The notes under the pieces are model-generated. The model saw only the letters and a program-made list of their open reading frames with translations. It searched no databases and was not told the origin of the DNA. Below, in pieces: positions 4,498 through 19,102 of a DNA stretch of 33,081 nucleotides (within the stretch, counting starts at the first letter, position 1; the number at the start of each line of letters is the position of its first letter). Origin of the DNA: Bryobacteraceae bacterium (lineage in GTDB: Bacteria > Acidobacteriota > Terriglobia > Bryobacterales > Bryobacteraceae); assembly GCA_025055455.1 (NCBI GenBank), contig JANWXD010000034.1, positions 1 to 33,081 of the forward strand, read 5' to 3'. The position numbers and the translations under genes were made by a program.

Positions 4498-7400
4498 CTA
4501 CAGCCGCAGCGTCACCGTCAAATCCCGTCCGGGAAAACTCCCCGCCCCCTGCGGCGCCGATAGAATGTCCAGGCTCAGCTGCGCGCCCGCCCGCAGCGGC
4601 GGAAGCCCGAATCCGCTGACCACGTTCGAAACCAGACCCCCAGCGGGAATCGTCAGCGTGCAATACGGGTCGCTGTCCTGCCGCAGCCGCAGCAAGATCG
4701 CGCCGCCCCGCGGCGCTTCCCGCACCACAGCGAAGATGTCCCGCACCGCATGCGACTCCTCGACCACCAGAGGCGGCGCCACATCCGACTGCGTCGCCAG
4801 ATAGCCCTCGACTTGCACCGACATCTGGCCGCCCGACAGCGTGCGCAATCCCCCCTCCGGAGAGTTCGTAAAGCTGGCCGTCGCCGTCCGGCTGTTCCCG
4901 CGCATGTTCGTCACGAACAATTCGGCGCTCGCAATCCGCACGTCGGGCAGGTAGATCGAGTAACTGAAACTTCCGCTCGCCGGGCTCCCGAAAAAGTCCC
5001 GCACAAAGGGAATAATGAATACTTTCGGCCGGAGGTGGTACACCTTGTCCCCGGCGCTGTGAGTTCCCGGACTCGTACGGTGAGCGCCCCGGACCACCTC
5101 GTATCTGGAGCCGTTGTTGGCCACGCGAGTCACTCGCATCAGCTCCGCGCCGACCTGAATGAGGCTCCCCGGCTGCGCTGGGCCCGCAAGATTCAAATCT
5201 ACGAAGGTGTCGCTCGGGCTGAGGTCGCCCGCGAGCTCGTAACGGGTGGGGCTGGAGAGTTCGGCCCAGTAATGCAAGGTCAGCGTCGCCGCCGTGATCG
5301 TCCGCGTATTGGTGAGATCCTGAAACCCGATCGCCACCAGCTCCACGGTTCCTTTTCCCGTGGGTTGCAGTCCGAACACCGGCTCGTCCGGAACGTCGGT
5401 GTCGATGGGCGTCAGCGTACCGCCCCCGATCCTCCAACGCGTCAGCGGCGAAAGCTCGTATGCCGCTTCCCGGTTATGAACGTTCGCCGCCCGGCCCGAG
5501 ATGTGAACGGTCGCTCCTACCCGGTTCGGAACCTCGAACTCCACCGGGCTCGTCCGCGTCATCGCCCCGAAATGCCATGTCGCCTCTGCAATCACGAAGT
5601 GGCTCGTGCTATCCGGTTCTGTGGCCCAAGCCCGGTCCACTGTCAGCGTGGTGGCGTCATGGGCCGCGATGATTCGCTCTTGCCCCGCGCCCCTACCCTT
5701 CGTGATGCGCACCACCGCATGCCGGTATTCGTTCGGGTTCAGATTCAAAGCGTCGCTGCCGATACGAACCGGCCCGTAAATCGTCGCTTGCGTCTCCGGT
5801 ACTTGCTCGAAACGCCAGTAGAAATTCGCGTGGTCGAAGTTTTCATCCGGTGGTACCGCCAGCAGGGTCGGCAGACCCGTGTCGGTAAATTCCCCGGCGA
5901 GCGGCTGGTGCGCCACGATACGGTACAGTAGCGCCGGCGTGTCCCCCCGGTAGACGTGAAACCCGGCCGCGCCCGGGGGAAAGCTCAAACCCGTCAGCCG
6001 CACGGTGTTCGCCGTACCCGTAGCCGGAGTCCGCGCCGGAACCACAAATGACAGCGCGCTCTCTGTCCCGTCGGCGAACACCGCGCTAACCGCGTAGTAG
6101 TAAGTGCGACCGCCGGGCAGTGTGCCGCCGCTCGTGCCCACCACCGGCGACAAGCTCACCATCGGAACGCTCCGGCCGCTGGCGGCGGGCTTCGGCGGTA
6201 CGAGAAAACCTGCGCGCAGCCAGACCACGATGCGCCCGTCGCCCGAATCGTCGACCTGCTCCTGTATCTCGAGCTGCGGCTGGCCGTCTGGATCCAACAC
6301 GCTCCCCACTAGCGGCCGGGGCAAGCCGACCTCGTAAGACGGCTGACGGCCCGTCAGTGCGCCGCCAATCACCGTGTCGTCGTACCAACGGTCGTCGTGA
6401 ATCTGCGCCGTAATTCGCACCGTGCGGTAATTCAAACCCGGCGCGATCCGCTTCACGCGAAACGGCTGTCGCTGGAACCCCTCCTTCAGATAGGTGAGCG
6501 TGATCAGATCACCCGGCTTGAGACCCACACCCCGCACGCTCGTCTCGAACTCCACGTACGTGTTCCCCCGGATCGCCTTGTCCAGAGCGAGACGCGCCGC
6601 CCGCGCCGCTTGGCCTGCCGTGGCGATGCCCAGCGCGGGTAACGGCATGCTCACCTCCTGCCCAACCCGCAGCACGTCCTCCGGGTCCACTAAAGAAAGG
6701 CTGTCCTGTTGGTATTCATTCAGCGCGTCCTGAAACTCCACTACCACTCGGTTCGGCGTTTCGGCCGTGCTCCGCGACCACACCCGCAAACTCGGCGCCC
6801 CGCTTGCCGTACGTAAAATCCCCGAAAAACCAAAGGTGCCGTCGCCGAACTCATACGCCGGCCAGCCGCCATTCACAGGCGATGCACTGTTGCTGCCGGC
6901 GGGCTTCTGGGGTTGCTGCCGCGCCAGGGTGTCTTCCACCCGGAGTTGTAACCTGCCGTCGTCTCCTTGGACCAGGTACAGCCGCGACCCGGCCTGGATC
7001 CCCCGGACCACCTCCGCCACGCTGCGGCGTCGCCGCAGCACCAGGTTGCATTGGAAGCGCGGCGCCAACAGCGGATTGCCGTTCACATCCAAGGCTGGGA
7101 TCAACTCCGCGCACACCGCAGCAGCGCGGCTGAAGCTCGGGATGTCCAGTTCATCCTGCTTCCACCCGCAGCGGCGTAACACGTCGAGCAGCACCCAGGC
7201 CGGATTGTTGTCGAAGGCCTCGCCGGTATAGTTGCCTTGAAGATCGTAACGCGGCAGCTTTACCCCTTGCGCCAGCACCTCGATTCGCGGCAGCGTCCTT
7301 CCGTCGCTGACCCGCGTCGGCACGACCACGGAAAGAAACGCCATGCTGCCGTAGGGATCCCCTTCGGGAAAGTCCGGGTTGAATGCGCCGGTCCGCGCCC

Positions 7401-8406
7401 CCAGACTCACCACGCGGTACCAACCTGTCGCCGTCATGTCCGTCCCGTCCCGCCCCTCGGGAATCTCGAAATCGTTCACCAGCACCTTGAGGACGCCTTG
7501 CATCTCTCCCAGCCCCAGCAGCACTTCCAGCCGCGTCAGATTCCCGTCGTTGCGCGCGAACACCACTGGCGGCCGATACCACGCCGTGCCGTACACCAGC
7601 GGCACAAAGTCGTTGTACCGGGCCTCGTTCTCCGTGACGGCGGCAGGGTGAAATCCTTTTTCTCCGTGGCTTCGGACCAAAATGGAGGAGGGCACGAACT
7701 CGATGCCGCCGAAGCGGCGTGTCACGTTGCCCTGGCTGTCGGTATCGAACATCCCCCGCTGCTGGCACGATTCGCGGGTGTAATCGCAGCTAGTAAATGG
7801 CGCGCCCCCGTTCAGGTTCCCCGCGCCCCCGGGAATGTCCGCCGAATATCCACAGCGGTAAAACGGCGAGTATTTGCCCTCGGCGCCCCCCGTCGCCGCC
7901 TCCCCGCGCTGCGCAGCCGTCGCCGGAAATGTCCATGGGCATCGGCGTTGGATCCGCACCTCCGGTAACAGGACCCGGTGCAAGTTCAGGCGGCTCCCCA
8001 CCGAAAGGCGCAACGTGCTCTCCGTGATCTCCTCCGGCCCTTGAGCGATGCCCCGGAAAATGACCGCGGCCTCCGAGGTCGGCGTGTGGGCTCGAAGGTC
8101 GAAAAATACGAAGCGCGCCGTGACCCGGCTGCCCTTCCAACCCACTGCACGCTCCACTTGAGATAACCGCGAGTCGGTGTTGGCCAGGGTCAGGACGGCG
8201 CGCGTAACGCCGTCCACCCCCATCTCCGAGTCCGCGCGGATTTCGAACAGGTTGTGCTCGAGAATCCTTGGCTCGTATCGCTGGCCCTGAAAGGTGACCC
8301 CGTGTGTGCTCCAGTACAAGCGCTCGCCACTGAGCAGCTCACACTCCACTAGGACCAAGGGGGTGTCGGTGACTGCCCGCTCTTTGATCTCTGCAATCGT
8401 ACCCAT
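4498..8406 (-). CDS. Tail hub/tip protein: gpL-like Fe-S domain fused to gpJ-like host-specificity region
   Basis: A 1302-residue tail-tip protein. Residues 1-150 are a beta-rich hub domain resembling DUF2163/lambda gpL. Cys156, Cys185, Cys207 and Cys214, followed by RRFGGIEF, match the C-terminal gpL pattern that holds a 4Fe-4S cluster. Around 390-500 a gpJ-like block appears (NNPAWVLLDVLRRCGW, then DIPSFSRAA). A fibronectin/Ig-like module (YYYAVSAVFADGTE ... GFHVYRGD) occupies about 755-845, and beta-rich modules fill the rest. In lambda these functions are separate proteins; RcGTA has a comparable hub and a ~1300-residue megatron. The ATG at 8406 is preferred over a TTG at 8424 because GGAGCAGGG lies just before it. 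It should form the baseplate centre that docks on the cell surface. No NlpC/P60 peptidase gene sits beside it. Confidence 0.82.
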   Translation of the reverse strand: MGTIAEIKERAVTDTPLVLVECELLSGERLYWSTHGVTFQGQRYEPRILEHNLFEIRADSEMGVDGVTRAVLTLANTDSRLSQVERAVGWKGSRVTARFVFFDLRAHTPTSEAAVIFRGIAQGPEEITESTLRLSVGSRLNLHRVLLPEVRIQRRCPWTFPATAAQRGEAATGGAEGKYSPFYRCGYSADIPGGAGNLNGGAPFTSCDYTRESCQQRGMFDTDSQGNVTRRFGGIEFVPSSILVRSHGEKGFHPAAVTENEARYNDFVPLVYGTAWYRPPVVFARNDGNLTRLEVLLGLGEMQGVLKVLVNDFEIPEGRDGTDMTATGWYRVVSLGARTGAFNPDFPEGDPYGSMAFLSVVVPTRVSDGRTLPRIEVLAQGVKLPRYDLQGNYTGEAFDNNPAWVLLDVLRRCGWKQDELDIPSFSRAAAVCAELIPALDVNGNPLLAPRFQCNLVLRRRRSVAEVVRGIQAGSRLYLVQGDDGRLQLRVEDTLARQQPQKPAGSNSASPVNGGWPAYEFGDGTFGFSGILRTASGAPSLRVWSRSTAETPNRVVVEFQDALNEYQQDSLSLVDPEDVLRVGQEVSMPLPALGIATAGQAARAARLALDKAIRGNTYVEFETSVRGVGLKPGDLITLTYLKEGFQRQPFRVKRIAPGLNYRTVRITAQIHDDRWYDDTVIGGALTGRQPSYEVGLPRPLVGSVLDPDGQPQLEIQEQVDDSGDGRIVVWLRAGFLVPPKPAASGRSVPMVSLSPVVGTSGGTLPGGRTYYYAVSAVFADGTESALSFVVPARTPATGTANTVRLTGLSFPPGAAGFHVYRGDTPALLYRIVAHQPLAGEFTDTGLPTLLAVPPDENFDHANFYWRFEQVPETQATIYGPVRIGSDALNLNPNEYRHAVVRITKGRGAGQERIIAAHDATTLTVDRAWATEPDSTSHFVIAEATWHFGAMTRTSPVEFEVPNRVGATVHISGRAANVHNREAAYELSPLTRWRIGGGTLTPIDTDVPDEPVFGLQPTGKGTVELVAIGFQDLTNTRTITAATLTLHYWAELSSPTRYELAGDLSPSDTFVDLNLAGPAQPGSLIQVGAELMRVTRVANNGSRYEVVRGAHRTSPGTHSAGDKVYHLRPKVFIIPFVRDFFGSPASGSFSYSIYLPDVRIASAELFVTNMRGNSRTATASFTNSPEGGLRTLSGGQMSVQVEGYLATQSDVAPPLVVEESHAVRDIFAVVREAPRGGAILLRLRQDSDPYCTLTIPAGGLVSNVVSGFGLPPLRAGAQLSLDILSAPQGAGSFPGRDLTVTLRL

Positions 8407-8487
8407 TGCGATACCCTGCTCCAACCGCCGCGATCTCGTGGAGAACGCTGTCGCGCCGCCGATCCCAGCGTGGCGCCCGGGGGGAAC

Positions 8488-9285
8488 CTATCCTGACAGC
8501 GGCGCCGTAATGAACACCGTGCACGAATACTGCCCGGGCCCGTCCGCCTGAATCGCCAGCGCATCGGAGTCGAAACGCGCTGTCGGAAAGACCCCTCCTC
8601 GAGCACTACTGCGCTTGTAAGTCGAAGGAAGCACCTGGGCCTCAACCTGAAGGCCCCAAAGGTCTGTCGCCATTCCACCCGCCAGACGGATGGCAAACCG
8701 CACCGTTTCCGCTGTCGTCGTCGTGCGACCCGTGAGCCAGACCCGCCGCCACTCCGGGGTAACCGCGAATCCCCGCCGGTCTTCTCCGCCTGCCGCGGCC
8801 CGGACGAGCTCCAAAACTCCCCCGCCATCCCCGCGCACGTATGCGCTGAAGCAATACTGGTACCAGCCCGGGGCCGCAATCGCCTGACTCAATTCCTGCG
8901 GCGCTGCTCCCGTGTTGGTGACCCGGGTCGCGGTTTGGCCCCCCTCCGGGTCCACCTGCCCTTCCGTCAGCGTCAGCAGCGGATCTTTCGTCCAAACCGG
9001 TTCGCTCAGCCGCTCGCTCCACGCAAGCAAGTTCGCCGTGGGATCCACAAACGTGAAATTTTTCAGCCGCCCTTCCGTCGCCTCAAAAAACTGTTCGAGG
9101 GTATCTCGCTCCTCCTCCGTTAGGCGGCGGTAGGTCAGCTCCCACCGGACGCGGCCGGCCTCGGAGTCCGCGCGCTTCGCTATGCCCCCGCTCAGGTTCA
9201 CAGCCCGCACGGTCCGGAAAATCCGCTGCCGGCTCAAAGGATACTGGGCTACGGCGCCCGGCAAGAATTGTGGAAAATACAGCAT
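8488..9285 (-). CDS. Distal-tail-like protein with C-terminal carbohydrate-binding-like jelly roll
   Basis: 265 residues. The first ~95 residues (FPQFLPGAVAQYPL; later LEQFFEATEG and FTFVDP) are clearly related to the neighbouring protein encoded at 9287-9646 and to the DUF2460-like distal tail family. The rest looks like the jelly-roll modules common in phage tails: WYQYCFSAYVRG, then TPEWRRVWLTG, then VRFAIRLAGG, DLWGLQVE, and the closing PSTYKRSS. Such modules often bind glycans, so a receptor-contact role at the tail tip is inferred. The start is an ATG one base after the stop of the upstream gene. A gap of 81 bases separates it from the hub gene, the largest within the tail-tip genes, and nothing is recognisable there. 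Confidence 0.72.
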   Translation of the reverse strand: MLYFPQFLPGAVAQYPLSRQRIFRTVRAVNLSGGIAKRADSEAGRVRWELTYRRLTEEERDTLEQFFEATEGRLKNFTFVDPTANLLAWSERLSEPVWTKDPLLTLTEGQVDPEGGQTATRVTNTGAAPQELSQAIAAPGWYQYCFSAYVRGDGGGVLELVRAAAGGEDRRGFAVTPEWRRVWLTGRTTTTAETVRFAIRLAGGMATDLWGLQVEAQVLPSTYKRSSARGGVFPTARFDSDALAIQADGPGQYSCTVFITAPLSG

Positions 9286-9286
9286 C

Positions 9287-9646
9287 TCAACTCTTGTTTT
9301 GCCGAATCGTCAACCGAACCCGAACAGCGTCTTGGCCGTCCCAACCGAACTCGACTTCATCCGACTCCAAGCTGCAATCTGGGTAGACGGTGCCGTCGAC
9401 GGGATCCACGAAGGAAAAACTGCTCTGGCCGCCGCGTACGGCCTCGACGAATTCCGCCAGTTCATTTGCTTCCCGGTCGTCCAATAGCTCGAGGGAAATC
9501 ACCCACCTCTTGAGTGGCTGCTCGACGTCCCGATAACGCTGTTCGCTGCCGTCGACGAAGCGCGCCACGTATGTCTTCCAGCCCGACACGCGCACCAACG
9601 GATACTGCGCCGGCGCGCCGGTCTTGAGCGTGGGAAAGCTCGCCAT
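9287..9646 (-). CDS. Distal-tail-like protein (short paralogue of the next gene)
   Basis: A 119-residue protein with the pattern FPTLKTGAPAQYPLVR near the start, LAEFVEAVRGG in the middle and FSFVDPVDG near the end. This aligns by eye with the N-terminal third of the protein encoded at 8488-9285, so the two arose by duplication or are consecutive ring subunits. Distal tail proteins sit between tail tube and hub. The start codon is one base after the tape-measure stop (TAG-T-ATG) and the stop is one base before the next ATG, so all three are co-translated. Assignment to the DUF2460-like group is by motif and position, not by search. Confidence 0.68.
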   Translation of the reverse strand: MASFPTLKTGAPAQYPLVRVSGWKTYVARFVDGSEQRYRDVEQPLKRWVISLELLDDREANELAEFVEAVRGGQSSFSFVDPVDGTVYPDCSLESDEVEFGWDGQDAVRVRLTIRQNKS

Positions 9647-9647
9647 A

Positions 9648-10256
9648 CTACAGTTCTCCCAGAACGTCGTTCAAACCGTGGGCATTCAGCATTGCTTCCC
9701 GAACCGCCTGGGCAATTTCGTCCCTCCGGTCCAGAAACGACCGGCTATCCAAGGCCTGAATTTGTACCGTGATCTGCGGCGTGCTCGGCGCCACCCGTCT
9801 CACGGCCCCCGCCGGGCCGTAGTCGGCGGCCCCCAACGGTGCGCCAGCCTCTGGCACCGTTCCCTCGAATCGCGCCGGTGCCGGAGGCGCATAGCGCGGC
9901 AGGACCGGGGCAGCCTCTGCGCCCCTTCGGCCGAACAGACCGATCAAGCTGGAAATGAGTGGTGCCAACCCGAGCCCTCCGCCCACGAATCGCCCCGCTA
10001 GGCGGAGAGCATCCGACGCAAGCCCGAGCCCGCCTCCTGACCGCGCCGTGGTATTCTCTCGGAGGGCCGCGGTGTTTTCTTCCGCGGCTTCCGCCTGTCG
10101 CAGCGCTGTGACCCGAAGCCGGTCGAGCGCGACCGTCACGTTCTCCCACGCCGCCCCCTGCTCCAGGATCGCTCGTGCCGTGCGCTCGAGCAGACCGTTT
10201 GCGCCGCCTTCCCCGGCTCTGGTGAAAGGTCCCAGCAGCCGTTCAAGCTCGCTCAT
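9648..10256 (-). CDS. Short tail tape measure protein
   Basis: 202 residues, placed exactly where the tape measure gene lies in siphoviruses: after the frameshifted chaperone pair and before the distal tail genes. The first ~75 residues are helical and charged (ALDRLRVTALRQAEAAEEN). A Gly-rich hydrophobic segment (about 80-110, GLAPLISSLIGLFG) follows, as in tape measures that insert into the target membrane. A Pro-rich linker and a C-terminal helix close the protein. Tape measures of long-tailed phages have 700 or more residues; 202 is close to the 219 of RcGTA. The ATG at 10256 overlaps the end of the chaperone T frame by 14 bases. Function is assigned by position and composition. Confidence 0.68.
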   Translation of the reverse strand: MSELERLLGPFTRAGEGGANGLLERTARAILEQGAAWENVTVALDRLRVTALRQAEAAEENTAALRENTTARSGGGLGLASDALRLAGRFVGGGLGLAPLISSLIGLFGRRGAEAAPVLPRYAPPAPARFEGTVPEAGAPLGAADYGPAGAVRRVAPSTPQITVQIQALDSRSFLDRRDEIAQAVREAMLNAHGLNDVLGEL

Positions 10257-10581
10257 CGCCTTGGTCCGCCTCCCTTCGCCACTCGTCTTCTAAAAGCAAA
10301 AAGGCCTCTGCCTGTCGCGCGCTCAGTCGGCGATAGTCTTGCCCGCCAGATAACTTCCACAAGTAATATCTCTCCAGTAACTCGATGCTCTCCGGGGTGA
10401 TCAGCGACTTGGGGCATTCCGTCACGGCGACCGGTCCGCGAGCCCAAACCACCCGCCTCGAACCTTCGACGGCGCCCGTTCGAAACCCGCAGCCCCGCCG
10501 ATCCTCCAGGCCTTGTTCGCGGCATGTGTCGCACCTCCACTTGGCCTGGTCGGAAAACTGAAAGTGGAAGGCGACGATTAG
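10243..10581 (-). CDS. Tail-assembly chaperone, T extension (read by -1 frameshift)
   Basis: An open frame of 112 codons in the -1 frame relative to the preceding G gene, joined at the slip site 10581-10587. It has no in-frame ATG and its first possible start (a GTG) is about 45 codons in, so it can hardly be made alone. Frameshifting would give a G-T fusion of about 220 residues. The extension carries CDTCREQG and a nearby GCG, a possible zinc site, and the helical stretch ESIELLERYYLWKLSG. In lambda, gpG and gpGT coat the tape measure and guide tail-tube assembly; this pair has the same place and order. The frame overlaps the tape-measure ATG. Confidence 0.8.
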   Translation of the reverse strand, partial: LIVAFHFQFSDQAKWRCDTCREQGLEDRRGCGFRTGAVEGSRRVVWARGPVAVTECPKSLITPESIELLERYYLWKLSGGQDYRRLSARQAEAFLLLEDEWRREADQGDERA

Positions 10582-10904
10582 TTTTTTCGCTCTTCCTCCG
10601 TCAGCCCGCACTCGGCCTTGACGAGCGCGATGGCCTCCCGCACCAACTCCTCCGGGCCGGCCGCCAGCAAGGAGCTTGGCGTGGCAGGCTTGCCATCCAC
10701 CAGCAAGCCGTCCACTTGGATCACCCCCCACTGGAAATAAACTCGCTCGGCCTCCGCTGCAAGGAGGGCCGCACCGATCTTTTCCTCGGGCGCCTTGCCG
10801 GCCTCCAGATACTCAGCCTGCCGAGTCAGCTCCCGAATTCTTCGCGCCAGTTCGATCCGTCGTTCGAATGACATCCGGCGGATCGTAAGCCAGACGCCCG
10901 GCAT
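10578..10904 (-). CDS. Tail-assembly chaperone, G product
   Basis: 108 residues from the ATG at 10904 (MPGVWLTIRRMS), which has TGGAG nine bases upstream. An alternative ATG at 10976 would add 24 basic residues and overlap the tail tube gene by 29 bases; the pattern WLTIRRMSFERRIELARRI looks like the true domain start. The middle is helical (EKIGAALLAAEAERVYFQWG). The C-terminus (TEEERKN) ends at a TAA directly after an A_AAA_AAC heptamer. It sits between tail tube and tape measure, the fixed place of tail-assembly chaperones in siphoviruses. The unshifted form should be the more abundant product. Confidence 0.78.
   Translation of the reverse strand: MPGVWLTIRRMSFERRIELARRIRELTRQAEYLEAGKAPEEKIGAALLAAEAERVYFQWGVIQVDGLLVDGKPATPSSLLAAGPEELVREAIALVKAECGLTEEERKN
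10581..10587 (-). promoter_or_regulatory. Programmed -1 ribosomal frameshift slippery site
   Basis: On the minus strand the bases read A AAA AAC, a canonical X_XXY_YYZ heptamer, correctly phased with the G frame (CGA AAA AAC TAA). The zero-frame stop follows immediately. Slipping back one base places the ribosome on CTA ATC GTC and opens 112 more codons. Position and phase match the G/GT switch of tailed phages. The frameshift itself is inferred from sequence. Confidence 0.85.
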
Positions 10905-10947
10905 CGTCTGCGACTCCACCCGCCGGAAGCTCTGATAATTCCGTCTT

Positions 10948-12120
10948 CTACGCAAACGCCACCACAATCTCATCATCGGCCACCCCCTGCGCGCGGCAGC
11001 GGAGGAACCGCCACTGCAACCGCGTCTCGCTGTCGTCGAACTCCGGAACCTCCGGCACGACCGATTTCAGATACACCCCAAAAAGCTGCCCCGGACTCGT
11101 GCCCAGTTGGAACATTACCTCGATCGGAGAGCGTTGCCGCGCCGCCTGGTACAACGCCCGGGTGGCGTCGTCATCTTCTTCAAACAGATCGAAATCAACC
11201 TCCACGCGCCGAGGACCCGCGACTAGGCACCGCGGTAGAGCGCTCCCGAACTCGCGGCTGCGCACCTCGAGGTTGTTGTCCACCGTCACCTCAGCCCCCG
11301 TCAGACTGAAAAAACGGTCGGGCGCCGTCCCCAGCCACGCCTGCCCCAGATGTCCCGGAATGATCGGCGGGGGAGCCGCGGCTCCGCCCGGCTCTGGCGG
11401 AAACTCCGCCAGCCCCCCTTGCCCGGCTGCGAAGCTCACGCTGTCGATGACGTCCGCAGCCTCACCGCTGAAAAGCAGCTCGTGATAGTCCCCGTTGATC
11501 CGGATTCGCATCCGGTCAATTCCCGCCCCGGATAGGATCCGCTGCACCGCCGTGACAGGATCCCAGTAATCGAAAATACTTATGCTCTTGAGCTTGCTTG
11601 CGGGGAAGTAAGTCACCGTCTGCTGCAGCGGCGAGCCGGGACTCGGATTGAGGCTAAACGGCGCATTGAGAATCACCGTCGTCGCATCGGCCACCGCTGC
11701 CACAAAGCGCAGCTCTCCCCCGAACGCCACCGCTTGCCCCGGATTCAAACCATGCGGCGCCGCCAGCGTGACGGCTCGGCCCCCGTTTACCGTCGAAACC
11801 ACGCCTCCACTCCACACCGCCGGGTCCCCACCGAGTGCGCCTTCGATCAGCGCCCCCTGCGCCGGCGGCGCGCCGGAAACCGTATGGCCCGCCACATACG
11901 TCCGCAGCTCGAAAAAGGTCCGCCGTCGCAGACTCGTTGGGAGCCCACTGAAGGTTCGCGTCCCGGTCTTGTCCCGCCGCTCGGCGCGGTCCGTTTCCTG
12001 CCGGATCAGAAGCTTCAACGCCGAAAATCGGTTCGCCGCGCTCACGGGAGCCACCACCCCGTAGTGACTTTCGATCGCTGCATAAAAACGATTGTTATTT
12101 GATGCAATGTAACATCCCAT
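10948..12120 (-). CDS. Major tail tube protein
   Basis: A 390-residue, beta-rich protein located between the tail terminator and the chaperone pair, the usual place of the tail tube gene. It begins SNNNRFYAAIESHYG, a start style common in tail tube proteins that polymerise into stacked hexamers. A segment at about 80-180 (HGLNPGQAV ... ATTVILNAPF) looks like an added beta module, which would explain why it is larger than most tube proteins (roughly 150-250 residues). The ATG at 12120 has GGGAG seven bases upstream. The first 60 bases are noticeably AT-richer than the surroundings, which favours ready translation initiation. The family is assigned by synteny and overall character. Confidence 0.72.
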   Translation of the reverse strand: MGCYIASNNNRFYAAIESHYGVVAPVSAANRFSALKLLIRQETDRAERRDKTGTRTFSGLPTSLRRRTFFELRTYVAGHTVSGAPPAQGALIEGALGGDPAVWSGGVVSTVNGGRAVTLAAPHGLNPGQAVAFGGELRFVAAVADATTVILNAPFSLNPSPGSPLQQTVTYFPASKLKSISIFDYWDPVTAVQRILSGAGIDRMRIRINGDYHELLFSGEAADVIDSVSFAAGQGGLAEFPPEPGGAAAPPPIIPGHLGQAWLGTAPDRFFSLTGAEVTVDNNLEVRSREFGSALPRCLVAGPRRVEVDFDLFEEDDDATRALYQAARQRSPIEVMFQLGTSPGQLFGVYLKSVVPEVPEFDDSETRLQWRFLRCRAQGVADDEIVVAFA

Positions 12121-12133
12121 ATGTGCTCCCGGA

Positions 12134-12631
12134 TCAGTCCTGTCGAGCGTCTACTTCGAATGCAATCTTTGCGGATTGTAGGAAGTTCTTACCGCCATGT
12201 CGAATCGGGCTGTAAGTAACTTCATATCCACCCGGATAACACAGACCCTCACCCCAGTTACCACGTGCCGTGTCCAGGGTGTGCGCAATCGCCTCCGATA
12301 GCCGCTGCAACTCCGCGTCCAGATCCTCCAGCCGGTCTTTTGACACCCGGGCCTCGATGACCATTCGGATCCTGCCGGCAAAGGTCCGGAACTTTTCTTT
12401 GAGGTCGTTCGAAAGCCGCTCGCAGTAGACGTAAATCGCCGGGTAGTGCACGCCTGCGGTCTTTTCCGCGAGCTCCGACGAGATGTTCTGCCCGCGGATC
12501 TGTTCCGGGAGGACTTCGGCGGGAACTTTGCCCTCCCGCGACGCAATCCACGCAAGGCTCGCCGCCAGCCCCCCCGGTGCGCGCAACAGGTTCACCACGT
12601 ATTCCGTCGCCCGTCGGCCCGGTGCGCTCAT
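12134..12631 (-). CDS. Tail terminator / tail completion protein
   Basis: 165 residues with mixed alpha/beta pattern: PAIYVYCERLSN (strand), a RIRMVIEARVS strand, then a long helix EDLDAELQRLSEAIAHTLDTARG, then closing strands to KIAFEVDARQD. This order resembles tail terminator proteins (lambda gpU, DUF3168-like RcGTA g8), which cap the tube and join it to the head. The gene lies directly before the tube gene (13 bases) and three bases after the connector gene. No diagnostic motif exists, so the call leans on position. Confidence 0.6.
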   Translation of the reverse strand: MSAPGRRATEYVVNLLRAPGGLAASLAWIASREGKVPAEVLPEQIRGQNISSELAEKTAGVHYPAIYVYCERLSNDLKEKFRTFAGRIRMVIEARVSKDRLEDLDAELQRLSEAIAHTLDTARGNWGEGLCYPGGYEVTYSPIRHGGKNFLQSAKIAFEVDARQD

Positions 12632-12634
12632 CGC

Positions 12635-13387
12635 TCACCCCCGCAGCAACAGCCGCCGCAGCCGGACGAAGTCGGTCGCAGCTTGACCTGTCCCGGGCCT
12701 CCGCCCCGCCCGCAGTCCGGATGCTGGCAAAGTCCACATCGCGCCAGGCCTCAGTGGCGCGTCGTTCTGAAGCGTTACCTCCTCCGGCAAGATCCCCGCA
12801 TAGACGTTCCACCCATCGACGAAAGCCGGCGCCGCACCAGGTGCCACTGCAAGCACCGTGTTGGGCGGTGTGCTGAACGCCACCGGCTCGCTGGGCGCAC
12901 CTTCTTCATTTCCACCCGTCCAGCTCACTCGCACCCAAAATGTCCCGCCCGGATGCGCCCCGGGCGCCGCGCTCAGCCGGGGCGGAGCAGCCTTCGGAAT
13001 CGGCTGCCGCGTGACTCCCACCCCTTCCCGATATAGGCGCCCTCGCGCTTGTTTCGCCAGCCGGCCGTATTCCTTCCACTTTCCTAAGTAGCGGTCGTTG
13101 AGGTGGCTGTTGTAGGCGTCCCGGTAGATCAGTTCCAGGGCGTGCAGCACCTCCCACTGCCGCAAACTCGGCGTCACCACGACCTGTGTAAGCGGCCAAG
13201 GCGTGCCCCCGCGCTCCTCGGCTTCCTGCGCCAAAAACGTCGTCAGCTCGGCCCCGACGTCCTCGTGGGCCAGCCGCAGCTTCCCGGCGAGCTCGATGCG
13301 TTCCCCGGTGAGAAGCTCGGCGATGCCGCTTTCGTACTCCCGCAGTGCGTCCAGGCTGGCAAGTTGCTCGTCCGTGAACAGTCCCAT
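12635..13387 (-). CDS. Head-tail connector-like protein with C-terminal Ig/Fn3-like module
   Basis: 250 residues. Residues 1-135 are mostly helical (TDEQLASLDALREYESG, RQWEVLHALELIYRDAYNS), as expected for an adaptor sitting under the portal. Residues about 145-235 are a beta-sandwich-like module (GTFWVRVSWTGGNEEGAPSE ... DGWNVYAGI) similar in layout to a module in the hub protein. A surface-exposed Ig-like domain on a neck protein is unusual but known in tailed phages. The gene lies between the coat-side genes and the tail terminator; the start ATG at 13387 follows a stop by 27 bases. Function is by place and helical character. Confidence 0.55.
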   Translation of the reverse strand: MGLFTDEQLASLDALREYESGIAELLTGERIELAGKLRLAHEDVGAELTTFLAQEAEERGGTPWPLTQVVVTPSLRQWEVLHALELIYRDAYNSHLNDRYLGKWKEYGRLAKQARGRLYREGVGVTRQPIPKAAPPRLSAAPGAHPGGTFWVRVSWTGGNEEGAPSEPVAFSTPPNTVLAVAPGAAPAFVDGWNVYAGILPEEVTLQNDAPLRPGAMWTLPASGLRAGRRPGTGQAATDFVRLRRLLLRG

Positions 13388-13414
13388 GGCTCCGCCTTCC
13401 CCGCGGGAGCCCCG

Positions 13415-13726
13415 CTATTTTTTCCGCACGAGGTCACCGCGTTTCGCAGTTGGCTCCTCGAACGCCGTCGGTTCGGGCCGGGCAGTTTCGTGGGACCCAC
13501 CCGCCTCGGCCACCATCCGGGCGCTCCGCCACTGCCTCGTCTGCTCCTCGGTGGCCAGCTCCGCCGCACCGTCCAAGATCAATTGCGCTGCCAGACGCCG
13601 TGAGACTTCGGTCAATGTCCCGGCACATCCGCCGTCGGGAGTTTCTTTGCTCACGACCACCACATAGTCAGACGGCAGCGTCGCTTCCAGTTCTCGCAAT
13701 TTCTGGTAATAAACCCTCAAGTCCAT
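13415..13726 (-). CDS. Small virion-cluster protein of unknown function
   Basis: 103 residues starting at the ATG at 13726, chosen because GGAGACAGG precedes it and because the longer frame above it runs through an intergenic hairpin. It opens MDLRVYYQKLRELEATLP, then VVVVSKETPDGG, then a helical stretch with RRLAAQLILDGAAELA, and ends in a basic tail (RGDLVRKK). I do not recognise the family. It lies between the coat gene and the connector, a slot that can hold decoration, head-completion or small DNA-binding proteins. Clean spacing and a good ribosome binding site argue that it is real. Confidence 0.7.
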   Translation of the reverse strand: MDLRVYYQKLRELEATLPSDYVVVVSKETPDGGCAGTLTEVSRRLAAQLILDGAAELATEEQTRQWRSARMVAEAGGSHETARPEPTAFEEPTAKRGDLVRKK

Positions 13727-13765
13727 CCCTGTCTCCGTTGCACTTTCCACAATTACTTCTCTGGC

Positions 13766-13829
13766 GGGGCGCTGCAGCGCAGGCGTCAGAGCCTCCCGCG
13801 GGGGTCCGAACCCTGCGCCGCAGTGCCCC
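13766..13829 (-). other. Long imperfect hairpin just after the coat gene
   Basis: Arms 13766-13783 and 13812-13829 pair over 18 positions in the minus-strand transcript (5-bp GGGGC/GCCCC, 4-bp CTGC/GCAG and 7-bp GCGCAGG/CCTGCGC blocks, one G-U pair, one A-C mismatch). The 28-base apical loop contains a further CCCGCGGG palindrome. No U-tract follows, so it is not a simple intrinsic terminator. It lies between the coat gene stop (13845) and the next ribosome binding site, and may act as an attenuator or RNA-end stabiliser. Confidence 0.55.
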
Positions 13830-13844
13830 TCGCCCCAGCCAAAG

Positions 13845-14756
13845 CTAGCTGTTGACTTGCACGCCGAAGTTATTGCGCAGTACGCCAACCCCGTACAGCA
13901 CGTCCACGGTGAACTGCTGGGCCAGCGTGTTCGGCTGGTAGCTCATTACCACCCGCATGCCGAAGTTGCCCAGTTCGGCGTACTCGGCGATGGCTCCGGT
14001 ACCTGGCAGGGGTTGCGGCAACCGCCGGATCACGAGCCCGATCGCGCTCCGGGCAAACGCAAGATTATGGGTCGTCACCGGCGCGCTGCCCGTCTTGTGC
14101 ACGAACTGGGACCGGAAGACGTAGAAGTCTTTGATCTTCCCGACAGTGCCGTCAACCAGCGCCCGCAGGCCGGCCTCCCCCGCAGTCTGGAACTCGCTGA
14201 AGCGCGGAATCTGCCGCAGCTGCGAGTACGTCGCCGCATCCACCACCAGGTACTTGGGCTCACTGGCCGGCACCTTGGCCTGAAACAGCGCCGTTTCGGC
14301 GGCGTCGATCACCGCCTCCGTCACCGGAGTTCCGGGGGTGCCCACAGGCGGATTCGCCGTGAATCGCGCATACAGGCCGAGCAAGTCGCTCTCGATCTTT
14401 TCCGCCAGAGCCACGACCGCCGGCTGCATGTAGAGCTTCAGCAAATCCGGCACCGCGAGCACCTTCGTCACGTCCGGAATCTGAAACGTCGCCTCGGCAT
14501 GGGTGTTCAGCACAATCTGCGCATTCCCCAAACTCGGGTTCTGCGGTTGCACCGTCCCCCCTTCGGCGATGTTGTTCGCCACCAGGCTCGGGGGAATCGG
14601 CACGTTCACCGTGTCCCCCGCCTGGGCGAGTGTCGGCTCAAAGTCGCGATTGACGAGGTTCCCCATGACAAGGTTCCCCATAAGCGCAGGCAAAGCGTCC
14701 ACCGCTACCAGCTTGACAATCGCGTGCGCCACGTTGGCTGATGTGATGGCTGGCAT
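13845..14756 (-). CDS. Major capsid protein, P22 coat-like
   Basis: 303 residues. The N-terminal part contains NRDFEPTLAQAGDTVNVPIPP, followed by VLNTHAEATFQIPDV and helix LAEKIESDLLGLYARF. This is the style of the P22-coat-like branch of the HK97 fold (GDTV-x-V-x-IP near residue 50, HK97-like core after it). The C-terminal half ends with a strand-rich segment (GMRVVMSYQPN). There is no sign of an N-terminal delta domain cleaved by a protease and no protease gene nearby; a separate scaffold gene lies immediately upstream. The ATG at 14756 is preceded by AAAGGAGAT, the strongest ribosome binding site of the cluster, as expected for the most abundant virion protein. Confidence 0.82.
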   Translation of the reverse strand: MPAITSANVAHAIVKLVAVDALPALMGNLVMGNLVNRDFEPTLAQAGDTVNVPIPPSLVANNIAEGGTVQPQNPSLGNAQIVLNTHAEATFQIPDVTKVLAVPDLLKLYMQPAVVALAEKIESDLLGLYARFTANPPVGTPGTPVTEAVIDAAETALFQAKVPASEPKYLVVDAATYSQLRQIPRFSEFQTAGEAGLRALVDGTVGKIKDFYVFRSQFVHKTGSAPVTTHNLAFARSAIGLVIRRLPQPLPGTGAIAEYAELGNFGMRVVMSYQPNTLAQQFTVDVLYGVGVLRNNFGVQVNS

Positions 14757-14870
14757 CCCTTGTTATCTCCTTTGTCTGATGTTGCAATCCGCCCTCTCGA
14801 GCGTCATCTTCCCCGGCCCCGCGCTCCTTCTCGAGTCCGCGAGCCGCAGGATCCTAAGAAACCGTCCCGG

Positions 14871-15452
14871 CTAAGCGCCCCCCAAAGATTGCGACGCCAG
14901 GCGCGCAATCTCCCGCCGGACTTGCTCCAGCTCTTCCGGGCTCATCCCCGGCCGGATCCGGTCCAAGTCCACCACGCCCGGGCCGGACGGTCGCGCGGGG
15001 GGCGTCGCCCCAGAGCCACCGAGGTTCCGCGCAGGTAAAAACTCCGGGTTCTCGTTTACAAACTTCGCCAGATATTCCCGTAAACCGACGACGCCCTGCT
15101 CGGTCGTCGCTACCAGTTGCCCGTCCTCGGCGCGGCGTACGTCGTCCTTGACGATCCGGAAAGCCAGGTCCACTTTCGTCACCCCCAGCCTTTGCAGCTC
15201 CGCCCGGATCGCAGCATGGCGCTCCGCCTCCTCGGCCCGCTGTCGGTTCCGCGCGTTCTCTTCGATCAGCTCGTTCACCCGTCGCTCCAACTGTTCCCGC
15301 CGCTTGCGTTCCTCCGCCAGCTCGTTCTTGTACGCGGGCTCCGCCTTCAGAGCTTCTTTCTGGAAGTACTCCTCGAGCGCCTCCCGAATCAGATTCCTTA
15401 CCTGTTCTGCTCCCGTCAGAAACTCGGGTTGTTCCCGTCGCGCCTCACTCAT
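14871..15452 (-). CDS. Capsid scaffolding protein
   Basis: 193 residues, very charged and mostly helical. A coiled-coil-like stretch runs from about 30 to 85 (ELAEERKRREQLERRVNELIEE). A second region (TTEQGVVGLREYLAKFVNENPEF) and a Pro-rich linker lead to a C-terminal helix (SPEELEQVRREIARLASQ), the part that usually binds coat protein. Position between portal and coat is standard for scaffolds. The ATG at 15452 has GGGAGGGAG directly upstream, so it is preferred over an ATG sixteen codons earlier that would overlap the portal gene. The scaffold agrees with the absence of a maturation protease. Confidence 0.78.
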   Translation of the reverse strand: MSEARREQPEFLTGAEQVRNLIREALEEYFQKEALKAEPAYKNELAEERKRREQLERRVNELIEENARNRQRAEEAERHAAIRAELQRLGVTKVDLAFRIVKDDVRRAEDGQLVATTEQGVVGLREYLAKFVNENPEFLPARNLGGSGATPPARPSGPGVVDLDRIRPGMSPEELEQVRREIARLASQSLGGA

Positions 15453-15468
15453 TGCTCCCTCCCATCCG

Positions 15469-16863
15469 TCAGATATCCTTTGCCGCATCGCACCACTCAT
15501 CGATCTCTTGGGCGATGCGATCTTTGATGTCCTGCCGCACGTCGCACAGATACTTCAGACTTAGTTTTTTGAGTACCTGCTTCCGTAGCGTCTTGGATCC
15601 CTGTGCGAGTTGCAGAAGTTTCATACCGTCCTCCAGCTCGCCGCTGAAGTCCCCGATGTCGAACTCGTCCAATCCCGACACGTTGATCCGGAGTCCGTCA
15701 CCCCGCGCCGCCGCGATGCTGCCCAGCACTCGCTTGAGCGTGTCCTTCACCGTATCGCCGTACGCCCGCAAAACCTCCTGTGTGACCGTGTAATCCCGCT
15801 GCTTGCTCAAACCAGACTGCGGCGCGTTTCCCGAAAAAGCGCCGCCCGCCTGCGTCATCAGGTAACAGACGCGGTAGATCTCGTTCTTCAAGCGGTCCAG
15901 ATTGTCCGCCGCAATCTGGAACACGTGCCCCTCCGGCTCGGTCCACCCGAATCGGTCCTCGGGCCCGAGTTGGATGTAGTACGACTCCCCGACGATTTGG
16001 TGCCACTCGCGGTCCGAGTAAATCACCGGCGACGCGAACAAGCCCATCGTCAGTGCCCACGACAGTGCGTTCGACTTGTTGAAGTGTTCCAGTTGCAGCG
16101 AGGCCGCCTTGTTAGCAAGCCACAACCCGTCGCTCACTTCCATCCGGAATAGTGGCACCCGTCCGAGCCCGGCCAGTCCGTGCCGTCCCTGACTCACAAG
16201 CCGCGGATGCGCTCGATCCTCCTCCGTCGCCTCGTAGATCCGAAACTCTTCCTTGTCGTAGTAAGACCACCGCCACCGCACAGCGGGCCGGCCGTCTCCG
16301 AGCTTTCGCTGCTCGAGGTGCGCCGTGCGGACCACGACCCAGTCCAGATTTCCCCGGTCGTCGTAGCTCCAGTTGATGACTTCCTCGGACCGATAGCCCA
16401 ACAGATAGGCGCGCGCCCACCCCTGCGCTTCCTCCTCGGCGCGGTTGGTCGGAGCCCGGTCCTTCCGCGGAAAATCCACGAGAACGTGCGCACATCCGGT
16501 CACCATCGCCTCGATGAGCTGCTTGCGGAAGAAGTCGGTCAGCGACGTCCCCTTCAGGTCGCAGTCCTCGATAAACGTCGCGAAAAACTCTTTTGCGGCC
16601 TCGTTCTCCCCCTCCAGCGTAACCACCGGCTCCCGACGGAACAGCGTCGCCGCGTACCAGTCAATGATCGAACCGAGATAATTCTCATAGAAGACGCGAC
16701 GGAGCCGCTCGGCATACACCTCCGCCGGCTCCTTGTGCCGTCGCACCAGGTATGCGGCGGCGTTCGCCGTAAACTGTTGGCCCCCTGCATAGAGATCCCG
16801 GTACGTGCGCCACACTTCTTTTTTCACCGTGTACTCAGGATGTTCCAAGTCGAGGCTCACCAT
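15469..16863 (-). CDS. Phage portal protein
   Basis: 464 residues, a usual portal size, encoded between large terminase and scaffold. The N-terminal region RRVFYENYLGSIIDWYAATLFRREP is typical of portals of the DUF4055/SPP1-like kind. A beta-rich wing follows, then a stem/crown region (LQLEHFNKSNALSWAL ... NLDRLKNEIYRVCYLM) and a helical C-terminus (KTLRKQVLKKLSLKYL). Portals form the dodecameric channel at one capsid vertex through which terminase pumps DNA. The ATG at 16863 has GGGGGAG five bases away. A gap of 54 bases separates it from the terminase stop. Confidence 0.82.
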   Translation of the reverse strand: MVSLDLEHPEYTVKKEVWRTYRDLYAGGQQFTANAAAYLVRRHKEPAEVYAERLRRVFYENYLGSIIDWYAATLFRREPVVTLEGENEAAKEFFATFIEDCDLKGTSLTDFFRKQLIEAMVTGCAHVLVDFPRKDRAPTNRAEEEAQGWARAYLLGYRSEEVINWSYDDRGNLDWVVVRTAHLEQRKLGDGRPAVRWRWSYYDKEEFRIYEATEEDRAHPRLVSQGRHGLAGLGRVPLFRMEVSDGLWLANKAASLQLEHFNKSNALSWALTMGLFASPVIYSDREWHQIVGESYYIQLGPEDRFGWTEPEGHVFQIAADNLDRLKNEIYRVCYLMTQAGGAFSGNAPQSGLSKQRDYTVTQEVLRAYGDTVKDTLKRVLGSIAAARGDGLRINVSGLDEFDIGDFSGELEDGMKLLQLAQGSKTLRKQVLKKLSLKYLCDVRQDIKDRIAQEIDEWCDAAKDI

Positions 16864-16917
16864 AACTCCCCCTGCTGTTTCTCGGATGTGTCTTCCCGAC
16901 CTCGCTTCCGCCGCCTC

Positions 16918-18228
16918 TCAAAACAACGTCAGGCGCTCCATCCGCTCCCCCGCCTTCGGGCGCGGGCGGCACTCCCCCCACACCAAGTAGCCCAGCGCGT
17001 CGGAAAGGTGCGTCCGCCGCGGATCCTTGTCCTTGTCAATGATGGTCGTGCCGGGTTTGTAACTCACTTGTTCCAGATCCGCGATCAATTCGGTGCATTT
17101 GCTGTCTATGTAGAGGCGCGGCGCCCCTTCCGTAGGTCGAAGCATTGCGTTGACCAGTTGCACGCGGCTGCGCACCTCCGGGTTACAGTCCGCGAAGCGG
17201 TAGCTTATCCTCCGGTATCCCCTCGCCTGAAAGTACTCCCGGATCAGGTCGAGGTCCGTCGGCCCGTTCGTCCGTCGATGGGAGGCGCTTGCGTCGCCGT
17301 ACACCACGAGCCCCCCGGGATGGTGACCCCACCGGTAGTAAAGCTCCTGGCACGCCTCCCCCGTCGTGGCGCGCCGCAGCACCAGCTCGTCTACCACGTA
17401 CAACGTATCCCCTTCGCGCTGGGCCACCACGGAGCACAACGGATCCACGTTGAAGTCCAGTGACCACAGCAACGGCATGTCGCCGCGCACCTTCGTGTCG
17501 CACACATTTCGCTTCCGATCGAACCCGTAGTAAACCTGCCCTTCATAAATGTTCAGGTACTTGCCGAGCACCTCCTGCTCATAAAACCTTTCGTCATAAC
17601 TGCGCTTGAGCCGTTCGTAATAGTCCGGGACCCGGCTCAGTAAGTGATGGTTTTCGAAGGGCGCGGCGAGAATGACGTCGTATCCCTCCACTCGCTGCGC
17701 GATGAAGCGCCGATACACCCAGTCGAATCCCTTGGGTGTCCAGACTGCAAAGCCGCACAGATGCTTGGCGTGCGGGTCGCGCAGGCGCGCCTCCAGTCGC
17801 AACCAGGCCTCCTCCGCGGTATAGGTCAGCTCGTCCAGGCCGAACCAAGCCAGGTTCGTGCCGCGCAGCCGCTCGAAGTCATCCAACGGGCGGAACAAGA
17901 CCCGCGAGCCCGTGTCCGTGAGCACCAGAACGTTTTCGGCCCGGTGGTGCTCGTACGGGATCCGGTTGCTTTCCAGAATCTCGAACAGCGTCGCTTGGGT
18001 GGCCTCCCGCAGCATCGGGTAAGTGGGCGCGCCCAGCAGGCCGGTGCAGCCGGCGTTGAGATAGGCCAGTCGGATTGCCTCCTGGCACAATGCCTGGCTC
18101 TTGCCCGAGCCGACCGGCCCGGAAAATCCTTTGAAGCGCGCCGGAGACCGGTGGAATCGTTCCTGCGAAGGCAGCGGGGTGTAGACTATCGTTCGTTGCC
18201 GAACTCGGCCTCCGATGGCCCGACCCAT
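16918..18228 (-). CDS. terL: Terminase large subunit
   Basis: 436 residues with both motor and nuclease domains intact. Walker A is GPVGSGKS at 37-44, Walker B ends in Asp132-Glu133 (WFGLDEL), and the TPKG coupling motif is near 164. The RNase-H-like nuclease has Asp258 (SLDFNVDP), Asp312 (VYGDAS) and Asp410 (HLSDALGYL), the three metal-binding acids expected. It would package DNA through the portal and cut it. Headful (pac) cutting, which generalised packaging needs, is possible but cannot be read from the sequence. The ATG at 18228 lies inside the small-subunit gene (43-base overlap); no later start keeps the full Walker region with a natural lead. Confidence 0.92.
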   Translation of the reverse strand: MGRAIGGRVRQRTIVYTPLPSQERFHRSPARFKGFSGPVGSGKSQALCQEAIRLAYLNAGCTGLLGAPTYPMLREATQATLFEILESNRIPYEHHRAENVLVLTDTGSRVLFRPLDDFERLRGTNLAWFGLDELTYTAEEAWLRLEARLRDPHAKHLCGFAVWTPKGFDWVYRRFIAQRVEGYDVILAAPFENHHLLSRVPDYYERLKRSYDERFYEQEVLGKYLNIYEGQVYYGFDRKRNVCDTKVRGDMPLLWSLDFNVDPLCSVVAQREGDTLYVVDELVLRRATTGEACQELYYRWGHHPGGLVVYGDASASHRRTNGPTDLDLIREYFQARGYRRISYRFADCNPEVRSRVQLVNAMLRPTEGAPRLYIDSKCTELIADLEQVSYKPGTTIIDKDKDPRRTHLSDALGYLVWGECRPRPKAGERMERLTLF

Positions 18229-18464
18229 CGAACCTCGATCCCCCTCGGTGAGCTCCTCTCCATCTGCTTCTCCAGCTCGACCAGTCGCACGAAGTCGCTC
18301 ACCGTGGCCTTGATCTCATTGGCCTCCACTTTGGCCACGATCGCGTCTTTCAACCTGCGTACCAGCGCTCGGTTGGAGCTGCTTCGGCGCCGGGCCGGCG
18401 TACGCGTCCGTCCGAGCCTCCGCTCCCCGAACGGGGGCAAACTCTTCTCCCCGCGGTTTGCCAT
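18186..18464 (-). CDS. Probable terminase small subunit
   Basis: 92 residues from an ATG at 18464, with GGAGGG six bases upstream. An in-frame start 34 codons earlier has no such site. The N-terminus is short and basic (RRLGRTRTPARRRSSS), followed by a helical part with VRRLKDAIVAKVEANEIKATVSDFVRLVELEKQME, compatible with DNA binding and oligomerisation. It overlaps the large terminase start, which is where the small subunit is normally encoded. It is shorter than most small terminases (about 140-180 residues), and RcGTA also has a reduced small subunit. The call rests on position. Confidence 0.58.
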   Translation of the reverse strand: MANRGEKSLPPFGERRLGRTRTPARRRSSSNRALVRRLKDAIVAKVEANEIKATVSDFVRLVELEKQMERSSPRGIEVRWVGPSEAEFGNER

Positions 18465-19102
18465 CGCATCCCTCCGATTCCAACACGTGCAGGTGCTTAC
18501 GTTCCGGGCCTTGTCGGACCAAGGCGCGTCCGCAGGCCTCTCTTCTGCCTCCACCGTATCACCCAACAGTGAGCAGCGCCCGACGACGGCCCTCTAACTC
18601 CAACAAAACGTGAAGGTTAAAGCTCTGGCCTTTTTGTGATTGCGGAACCGGACCTCGAGGGCTTTCGCGCTTCCGCACCGGCGCAACCCCATGGCCTCGG
18701 CACCGCCTCGCCCCGCCGGCGCAGCCGCATGGGAACCATGAGCCGCCTCGTACCAGCCCGAACGTTCGCCCGATCGCTAGAATCGAACCTGCGCGCCGCT
18801 CATCCGCCGAACGCTTCTTTCCAGCCCCTCGGAGAGAAACCGGCTCTCCCTCCGCCTCGTCTCACTCGATGATGGCGAACATCATCAGGGATTGGTTTCT
18901 CACCACCCACGGCAAAATCTTGCCTCTGAGTAGCTTCCTCGCCTAACCTTGCGCCCCGGGGAGAGTGTCCTGTCGTCTGCGGCTTCTGGCCGATTTCCTG
19001 GCTAGCGTCCCTCCCCCGTAACTTGCAGGTGCCGTACGAGCCCATGGCTCGGGGCCCCGGCGCCACTTGGTTCTTTCTCAACTGGCTTCGAGGAACTCGA
19101 GT
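18465..19102. other. Gene-free stretch between the virion cluster and the CBS-Mrp operon
   Basis: About 640 bases with no convincing gene on either strand. It must contain the divergent promoters of the virion cluster and the antiporter operon, but I see no clear -35/-10 pair. Three perfect small inverted repeats are present on the operon side: 18831-18849 (6-bp stem), 18868-18886 (7-bp stem, GCGAA loop) and 19037-19051 (6-bp stem, CAT loop). None is followed by a T-run. No integrase or repressor gene remnant is visible. Confidence 0.6.

Follow-up and report, generated by a model that had tools for sequence, protein, structure and literature searches.

Does a compact cluster of phage structural genes on a bacterial chromosome represent a prophage, or a particle that its host has made its own? 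The question is raised by 15 open frames, all on the minus strand, at positions 4498-18566 of a 33,081-nucleotide contig (JANWXD010000034.1, assembly GCA_025055455.1; this whole stretch is called the window) from a bacterium of the family Bryobacteraceae, phylum Acidobacteriota. The cluster runs from a candidate small terminase (TerS) to a J-like tail-tip protein. An initial annotation of the window, made from its letters, proposed that the locus could be an independently domesticated particle resembling a gene transfer agent (GTA), and named as rival a recent prophage that had lost its early arm. The first of these readings is upheld by the near-ubiquity of the cluster in the family, its congruence with the host tree apart from one supported conflict, low dN/dS, a Wzt neighbour shared by seven genera, the lack of a nearby integrase among the matches listed and the lack of att repeats. 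We are confident that these genes specify a phage-like particle that Bryobacteraceae have domesticated and pass on vertically, and, judging from its gene anatomy, this particle is probably a GTA.

The distribution is near-ubiquitous in the family rather than sporadic, the latter being the pattern that the initial annotation expected of an ordinary prophage. Of 200 Bryobacteraceae genomes sampled, 169 gave a coat match, among them 118 of the 140 high-quality ones, and 70 of 76 genera are represented; the match is single in 152 of the 169; the remaining 17 are partly split over contigs and partly second elements. The large terminase (TerL) was found in 164 of the 200 (120/140 high-quality). Seven coat-negative genomes (G061, G069, G094, G149, G191, G196 and G199) nevertheless encode TerL at E<1e-150, and G024, also coat-negative, carries a TerL piece at a contig end. 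Coat or TerL is present in at least 177 of the 200 genomes, a count that leaves out G201, G209 and weaker ones. A TerL search of named genomes gave 119 relatives, and the best 80 of these were all acidobacterial: 32 bear Bryobacterales or Bryobacteraceae names, 7 are Solibacter-type and the rest have wider Acidobacteria or Terriglobia labels, with three Acidobacteriales or Acidobacteriaceae among them. In a phylum-wide sample of 396 genomes, the coat matched in 15; setting aside the window genome and a second genome of the family, identity did not exceed 31%. Presence is patchy in the other families of this order and class, where G039, G044 and G057 have coats 77–82% identical.

Gene order and intactness were compared across genomes. 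We fetched 56 regions, 53 of them with TerL, and set aside two with TerL alone and a prophage-like cousin in G031, leaving 50. All 50 resident regions (at least three core genes each) are collinear on one strand, and because they come from many genera, this order is more than chance. All 14 core genes are found in 41 of them, and 38 of these 41 complete clusters (those free of a contig-end cut or insertion) span 12.9–14.6 kb. Broken frames were seen in the coat of G003, TerL of G186 and J of G012, G019, G039 and G053, and J of G020 is split in two; the other listed matches contain no internal stops. In G044, from another family of the order, an insert of ~3.8 kb separates the gene for the 202-aa tail protein from that for the 119-aa one (L217).

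A sign of upkeep comes from the tail assembly chaperone. Behind the tail tube gene, all 49 clusters compared have a frame that is followed by an overlapping −1 frame, the arrangement of the G and GT tail chaperones of phage lambda. The overlap contains AAAAAAC in 47 of the 49, within 9 nt of the stop in 44 of these; G127 has AAAAAAT instead, and none was found in G017. In the window, the upstream G-type frame (10578..10976, minus strand, 132 aa) was assigned by position and frameshift, and the GT-type extension occupies the −1 frame (10243..10731, minus strand); neither has a family match. The slippery heptamer A AAA AAC (10581..10587, minus strand) stands just before the upstream-frame stop. 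The two frames are probably joined by a programmed −1 frameshift, and the conservation of its site suggests that tail assembly has been kept functional.

Vertical descent, which the initial annotation had put forward as a test of domestication, was assessed with trees of 12 concatenated cluster proteins and of RpoB for 26 genomes, 24 of them from the family; of the 30 genomes with RpoB, G014 and G033 were dropped for a split RpoB, and G015 and G034 for having under 10 of the 12 proteins. The cluster tree shares 11 of 23 splits with the RpoB tree, against a mean of 0.27 and a maximum of 3 in 1000 permutations. Eleven RpoB splits have support ≥0.9; the cluster tree recovers 10 of them at the same threshold and conflicts with one. 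Within the family, the distances correlate at 0.69, where permutation reached 0.45 at most. Trees of head genes and of tail genes agree in 13 of 23 splits. The cluster proteins diverge ~4 times as much as RpoB; the coat is slow, with a median identity of 0.77 vs 0.82 for RpoB. Median dN/dS (Nei-Gojobori) lies between 0.04 and 0.24 over 11 genes, low as the same reading anticipated; the pairs are the closest ones and not independent, with four for the 132-aa frame and one each for the 202-aa and 265-aa tail proteins and J. The cluster genes are under purifying selection.

Marks of integration were looked for around the cluster. No att-like repeats were found between positions 3000 and 20500 of the window, where the only direct repeat across the cluster is a 25-nt one within the P-loop coding of Wzt and TerL. 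In a search of 26 genomes, no integrase among the matches listed (down to ~61 bits) lay closer than ~18 kb to the cluster, the closest being in G127 and another in G004 at ~45 kb. The window itself contains no tRNA and no Rfam match. Downstream of J lies a Wzt ABC transporter gene (3211..4434, minus strand), a conserved neighbour outside the particle gene set. It follows J in 7 of the 40 genomes with the flank read (in G014 after a TIM-barrel gene) and was further seen in G217, G064 and 5/5 genomes of genus g67 with long enough contigs, for a total of seven genera; the upstream neighbours of the cluster vary. Further downstream in the window are PTR2 transporter and M24 peptidase genes (573..3238, PTR2 at 1742-3238, minus strand), common to some relatives: M24 directly follows Wzt in G127, G217 and G064 and in the window comes behind PTR2, and Wzt is followed by PTR2 in G025, G028 and G032. 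The other flank holds a MnhA-type antiporter subunit (19540-21858). The direct neighbours are therefore transport genes rather than the metabolic genes first reported. Elsewhere, genes named from sequence as ilvB/ilvN/ilvC-type adjoin the cluster in six genomes; four have them on its upstream side and two on its downstream side.

The small terminase candidate bears on function as well as on origin. In the window it is a 126-aa frame (18186..18566, minus strand) with a later start likely. We fetched 160 TerL loci and scanned 120 for adjacent short frames; in 113 of these, a frame of 62–191 aa precedes or overlaps TerL and carries the conserved C-terminal stretch KaTvGDfIRLLQLeKELEeEqPkEIkVTWVEP, a descriptive count since the counting motif was drawn from the same kind of sequences. 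Its position and C-terminal conservation lead us to infer that this frame encodes TerS. Six candidate proteins had no match to a TerS or helix-turn-helix family; frames at the upper end of the length range, which reaches 191 aa, lay outside that scan. AlphaFold2, run with 25 sequences, predicted a disordered N-terminus and two helices (65–81 and 89–104; mean pLDDT 66), too few for a helix-turn-helix fold. The protein thus appears, as modelled, to have no detectable domain for recognizing phage DNA. In contrast, a prophage-like element in G031 encodes a 203-aa protein in the same place that matches the terminase small-subunit family phrog_6299 (E=7.6e-13). A missing N-terminal domain has been proposed as the defining mark of GTA-type TerS (Sherlock et al., PMC6854486), and the putative TerS of known GTAs are all described as lacking a DNA-binding domain in a 2024 review (PMC11841831), as far as the accessible parts of both sources go. 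A TerS without phage-DNA recognition would be expected if the particle exports the host genome in random fragments.

Matches in Pfam and PHROGs identify TerL, the portal, the scaffold, a coat of P22 type, the tail tube, two proteins of DUF2460 type and J, in the packaging-head-neck-tail order that the initial annotation had described. That annotation counted 14 genes on one strand, all open; the strand and the open frames stand, the count becomes 15, and the TerS frame reaches 18566. No integrase, repressor, replication or lysis family was detected among the cluster proteins by either database, in line with the earlier description; several small proteins have no match. The following genes all lie on the minus strand. 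TerL (16918..18228, 436 aa) matches phrog_2 (E=2.4e-39) and PF03237 (E=3.4e-8); its P-loop and aspartates D258, D312 and D410, which we take to serve the nuclease, are invariant across 16 aligned TerLs. The portal (15469..16863, 464 aa) matches phrog_145 (E=9.8e-52). A scaffolding protein (14871..15500, 209 aa; phrog_206, E=3e-8) precedes the coat (13845..14756, 303 aa; PF11651, E=1.2e-15; phrog_283, E=8.6e-43), and no protease match was obtained, which agrees with the earlier view of a P22-like coat with a scaffold instead of an HK97-like coat with a protease. After the coat comes a small conserved protein (13415..13888), a 157-aa frame from a TTG within the coat gene that is probably ~110–130 aa long. 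A neck protein candidate (12635..13387, 250 aa) has a weak head-closure match (phrog_8040, E=0.018), and a conserved neck or tail-terminator candidate (12134..12631, 165 aa) is so called from its position. The tail tube protein (10948..12120, 390 aa) matches PF18906 (E=1.2e-6) and phrog_290. Beyond the chaperone frames, a short tape-measure candidate (9648..10256, 202 aa) is suggested by position and by a match of its C-terminal stretch to phrog_3779 (E=0.0019). It is followed by a DUF2460-type tail protein (9287..9646, 119 aa; PF09343, E=5.8e-10), a second DUF2460-like one (8488..9285, 265 aa; PF09343, E=4.1e-7, slightly under the curated cut-off) and the J-like central tail-tip protein (4498..8424, 1308 aa; PF13550, E=7e-11; phrog_31, E=1.6e-25). 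A 239-aa frame at 18800-19519 was not counted as a gene, being matchless in Pfam, PHROGs and relatives. In 24 of the 40 genomes with the flank read, the gene after J encodes a tail protein with a TIM barrel, whose G087 copy matches PF23845 (E=1.1e-15); 700–920 aa of it were read, several copies running off the end of the sequence fetched. The window genome has no such gene after J; a 34% identical relative, a 958-aa tail TIM-barrel protein, is encoded on a separate contig (G000, C74; L301:9185-12061).

No close relative turned up in the phage collection. Among 50,697 phage records, there were 55 coat and 1024 TerL matches, all below 60% identity; the best listed coat matches were 32% identical over 41% of the coat and 28% over nearly the whole coat, and the best listed TerL match was 33.5% identical. 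Together with a TerS that has no detectable DNA-binding domain, the lack of a close relative in the phage collection strengthens the case for domestication. IMG/VR contains 539 stretches with a gene related to the window TerL, and the best 80 of them are 60–76% identical, many on contigs of 13–17 kb, the longest being 25.1 kb. A distant P22-type coat, 24–27% identical and mostly ~290 aa, occurs in seven genomes of genus g132 (family f27, same phylum; L291, L292, L293 and L296); the neighbouring frames share one order in the four genomes read, and the region is possibly a second resident head module.

Several observations weigh against a GTA. Particles, packaged host DNA and its transfer are predictions made from the genes. 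No lysis, regulator or receptor gene could be tied to the cluster, and the tape-measure, chaperone, neck and TerS labels draw on weak or positional evidence. The coat match is absent from 31 of the 200 family genomes. Outside Bryobacteraceae the cluster is patchy: of 18 genomes of f3, three have J, which in one case is a fragment interrupted by stops, and two have TerL, which in one case is a weak match. Upstream neighbours differ among genera. One supported conflict between the cluster and RpoB trees concerns the grouping of G008 with G028, and two supported conflicts separate head from tail gene trees; these allow some transfer or recombination. Prophage-like cousins exist in two genomes, G031 (C144; L219, L297 and L303) and G064 (C156; L404). 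Their coats are 77–81% identical to that of the resident cluster, but TerL (47–52% identical) and portal (only 32–34%) are quite different. Extra frames lie between TerL and portal in G031 and between portal and scaffold in G064. The G031 cousin has methyltransferase, HNH and helicase-loader matches nearby, and no integrase is among the matches listed for its contig. Finally, the TerL family is absent from all eight genomes of genus g67 (0/8; profile of 16 TerLs, E≤0.01), and G218, from another genus, whose assembly is 87% complete, also lacks it.

The g67 genomes deserve a closer look. Coat and portal are present in 8/8. The profile scan covered 17 genomes and detected TerL in 5/5 known to have it; three coat-negative genomes were likewise blank. 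An ordinary TerL relocated elsewhere in g67 was discarded as an explanation, the profile being blank in 8/8. In G127, a four-contig assembly of this genus, the cluster starts at the portal beside host genes and has open frames to J and Wzt; six other g67 genomes show the same genes in the same order up to contig ends, with most frames open. The breaks concern J of G198 (after residue 898) and early stops near the match starts of I in G078 and B in G206. As the clusters of g67 and G218 lack TerL, there would be no packaging with this motor there, and the g67 cluster is no phage on its own. Pfam Terminase_6N matches in g67 are frames of 259–331 aa, with one of 701 aa; on contigs of this genus (L315-L322), ATPase-only terminase frames of ~260–300 aa often occur several per genome. 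Some adjoin a separate RNase-H-like nuclease frame, and similar-sized matches occur in the TerL-bearing G168. Such split ATPase and nuclease frames elsewhere in the genome could act in trans. G218 has Terminase_6N frames of 446–538 aa, which may be other phage terminases.

The state of g67 bears most directly on the alternative that the domesticated particle has another job, killing cells, delivering protein or remaining empty, and so benefits its host without gene transfer. PBSX is an example of a host-kept particle that does not move genes. A genus that lacks TerL in 8/8 genomes and keeps coat and portal in 8/8, with neck and tail genes in the seven read further, fits such a role, and vertical descent with purifying selection would follow from any host benefit. 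Most genomes, however, retain TerL with invariant residues and a TerS candidate, and a pure killing tail needs no head or packaging genes; a tailocin is a tail without these, whereas coat, scaffold, portal and TerL are present here. We consider another job unlikely. A capsid-forming phage satellite has its own head genes, no tail genes and an integrase. A chromosomal island of that kind, borrowing tails or heads, would account for the compact size, yet the cluster has both head and tail genes and no listed integrase beside it, which makes this reading barely credible.

The temperate-phage explanations differ in what they make of the family-wide pattern. A recent prophage with a lost early arm, the rival in the initial annotation, does not fit; we reject a recent or defective prophage because of where the cluster occurs, its agreement with the host tree, its flanking genes, the positions of the listed integrases and the lack of att repeats. 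A widespread temperate phage of the family, present as prophage or remnant, could explain the phage gene order, the 539 stretches with TerL relatives that IMG/VR files as viral, the cousins in G031 and G064 and the fact that PMC11924767, in the portion available, speaks of Bryobacterales 'proviruses' for what is probably the same element. Such a phage is very unlikely given its presence in 70 of 76 genera, mostly at one match per genome, and its congruence with the host tree, and of the hallmarks of a temperate prophage (att sites, an integrase, genes for replication or immunity) none was found, for integrases among the matches listed near the cluster; no close phage record turned up in the 50,697 searched, and the best 80 of the 539 IMG/VR stretches lie on contigs no longer than 25.1 kb. 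If one phage lineage had instead integrated repeatedly and independently, host-specific phages co-diverging with their hosts might produce the congruence, and the upstream neighbours that differ between genera and the tree conflict would be accommodated. Co-divergence is hard to sustain without an integrase, att sites or free relatives, and the downstream Wzt is common to seven genera; we regard this scenario as highly improbable.

A domesticated GTA is therefore the reading that we carry forward. Three traits by which GTAs are recognized are found here: a chromosomal phage structural cluster without integration and replication genes of its own, vertical inheritance and purifying selection (with the one tree conflict), and a small terminase candidate without a detectable DNA-binding domain according to scans of six proteins and structure prediction. 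The functional trait, particles that carry random host DNA and transfer it, is a prediction. In such a system, TerL and the truncated TerS would fill heads with any chromosomal DNA present, by a headful mechanism; a short tail, built with the frameshifted chaperone, would be added to the head; release would proceed via lysis genes elsewhere; and the J/DUF2460 tip, plus the TIM-barrel tail protein in most relatives, would deliver the DNA to related cells. In its most specific form, which we offer tentatively as a possibility, nearly the whole family would own a GTA domesticated independently of all known ones. Its ancestor would be a tube-tailed phage with a P22-type head, relatives of which are still in circulation in the family, and one genus would have lost the motor but not the head and tail, its particle maybe empty or carrying non-DNA cargo.

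GTAs are known from few lineages, and the candidate described here, found in so large a share of the genomes of one family, would extend them to Acidobacteriota and show that a small terminase without a helix-turn-helix recurs in independent domestication. At least 80, and perhaps several hundred, 'viral' contigs of IMG/VR may then be host genes. The matter can be tested in cultured members of the family. We found no report of a GTA in this group in the accessible portions of a mainly open-access literature (PMC5900883, PMC12142844, PMC6172770), the first of which counts a single predicted prophage in Bryobacter aggregatus and another in Solibacter. The review PMC11841831, in the part available, asks whether distant GTAs are outliers and which features part GTAs from phages.

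Among the closest known systems is the GTA of Rhodobacter capsulatus (RcGTA; Alphaproteobacteria). The structural genes of RcGTA form a compact cluster that lacks genes for lysogeny and replication and is inherited vertically in its host group; it has an HK97-type coat with a prohead protease, and a tail-tip set of DUF2460, DUF2163, NlpC/P60 and PF13550 proteins. The Bryobacteraceae cluster shares the compactness, the vertical inheritance and the PF13550 and DUF2460 tail proteins; it differs in its P22-type coat with a separate scaffold and in its host phylum, and no DUF2163, NlpC/P60 or protease match was obtained among its proteins in Pfam and PHROGs. Membership in the RcGTA lineage is ruled out by the head type and the incomplete tail-tip set. 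Neither small terminase shows a helix-turn-helix, as RcGTA is described in the accessible part of PMC6854486. From the same host order, the available text of PMC11924767 describes a Bryobacterales-specific 'provirus group (i)', regions that genomes of Bryobacteraceae, Solibacter and Paludibaculum have in common and that are interpreted there as proviruses. Our cluster is probably the same element; the two viral genomes (UViGs) named in that text are absent from the best 80 of 539 and the best 80 of 340 IMG/VR matches. The FpGTA of Faecalibacterium, as far as PMC12946183 is accessible, is a 10.5-kb podovirus-like system with packaged DNA observed; unlike it, the Bryobacteraceae cluster is of the tail-tube type, and, as against both FpGTA and RcGTA, is known here through its genes. 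FpGTA and the cluster are alike in being non-alphaproteobacterial GTA-like operons, FpGTA near-ubiquitous in its genus, with a TerS that has no obvious DNA-binding domain.

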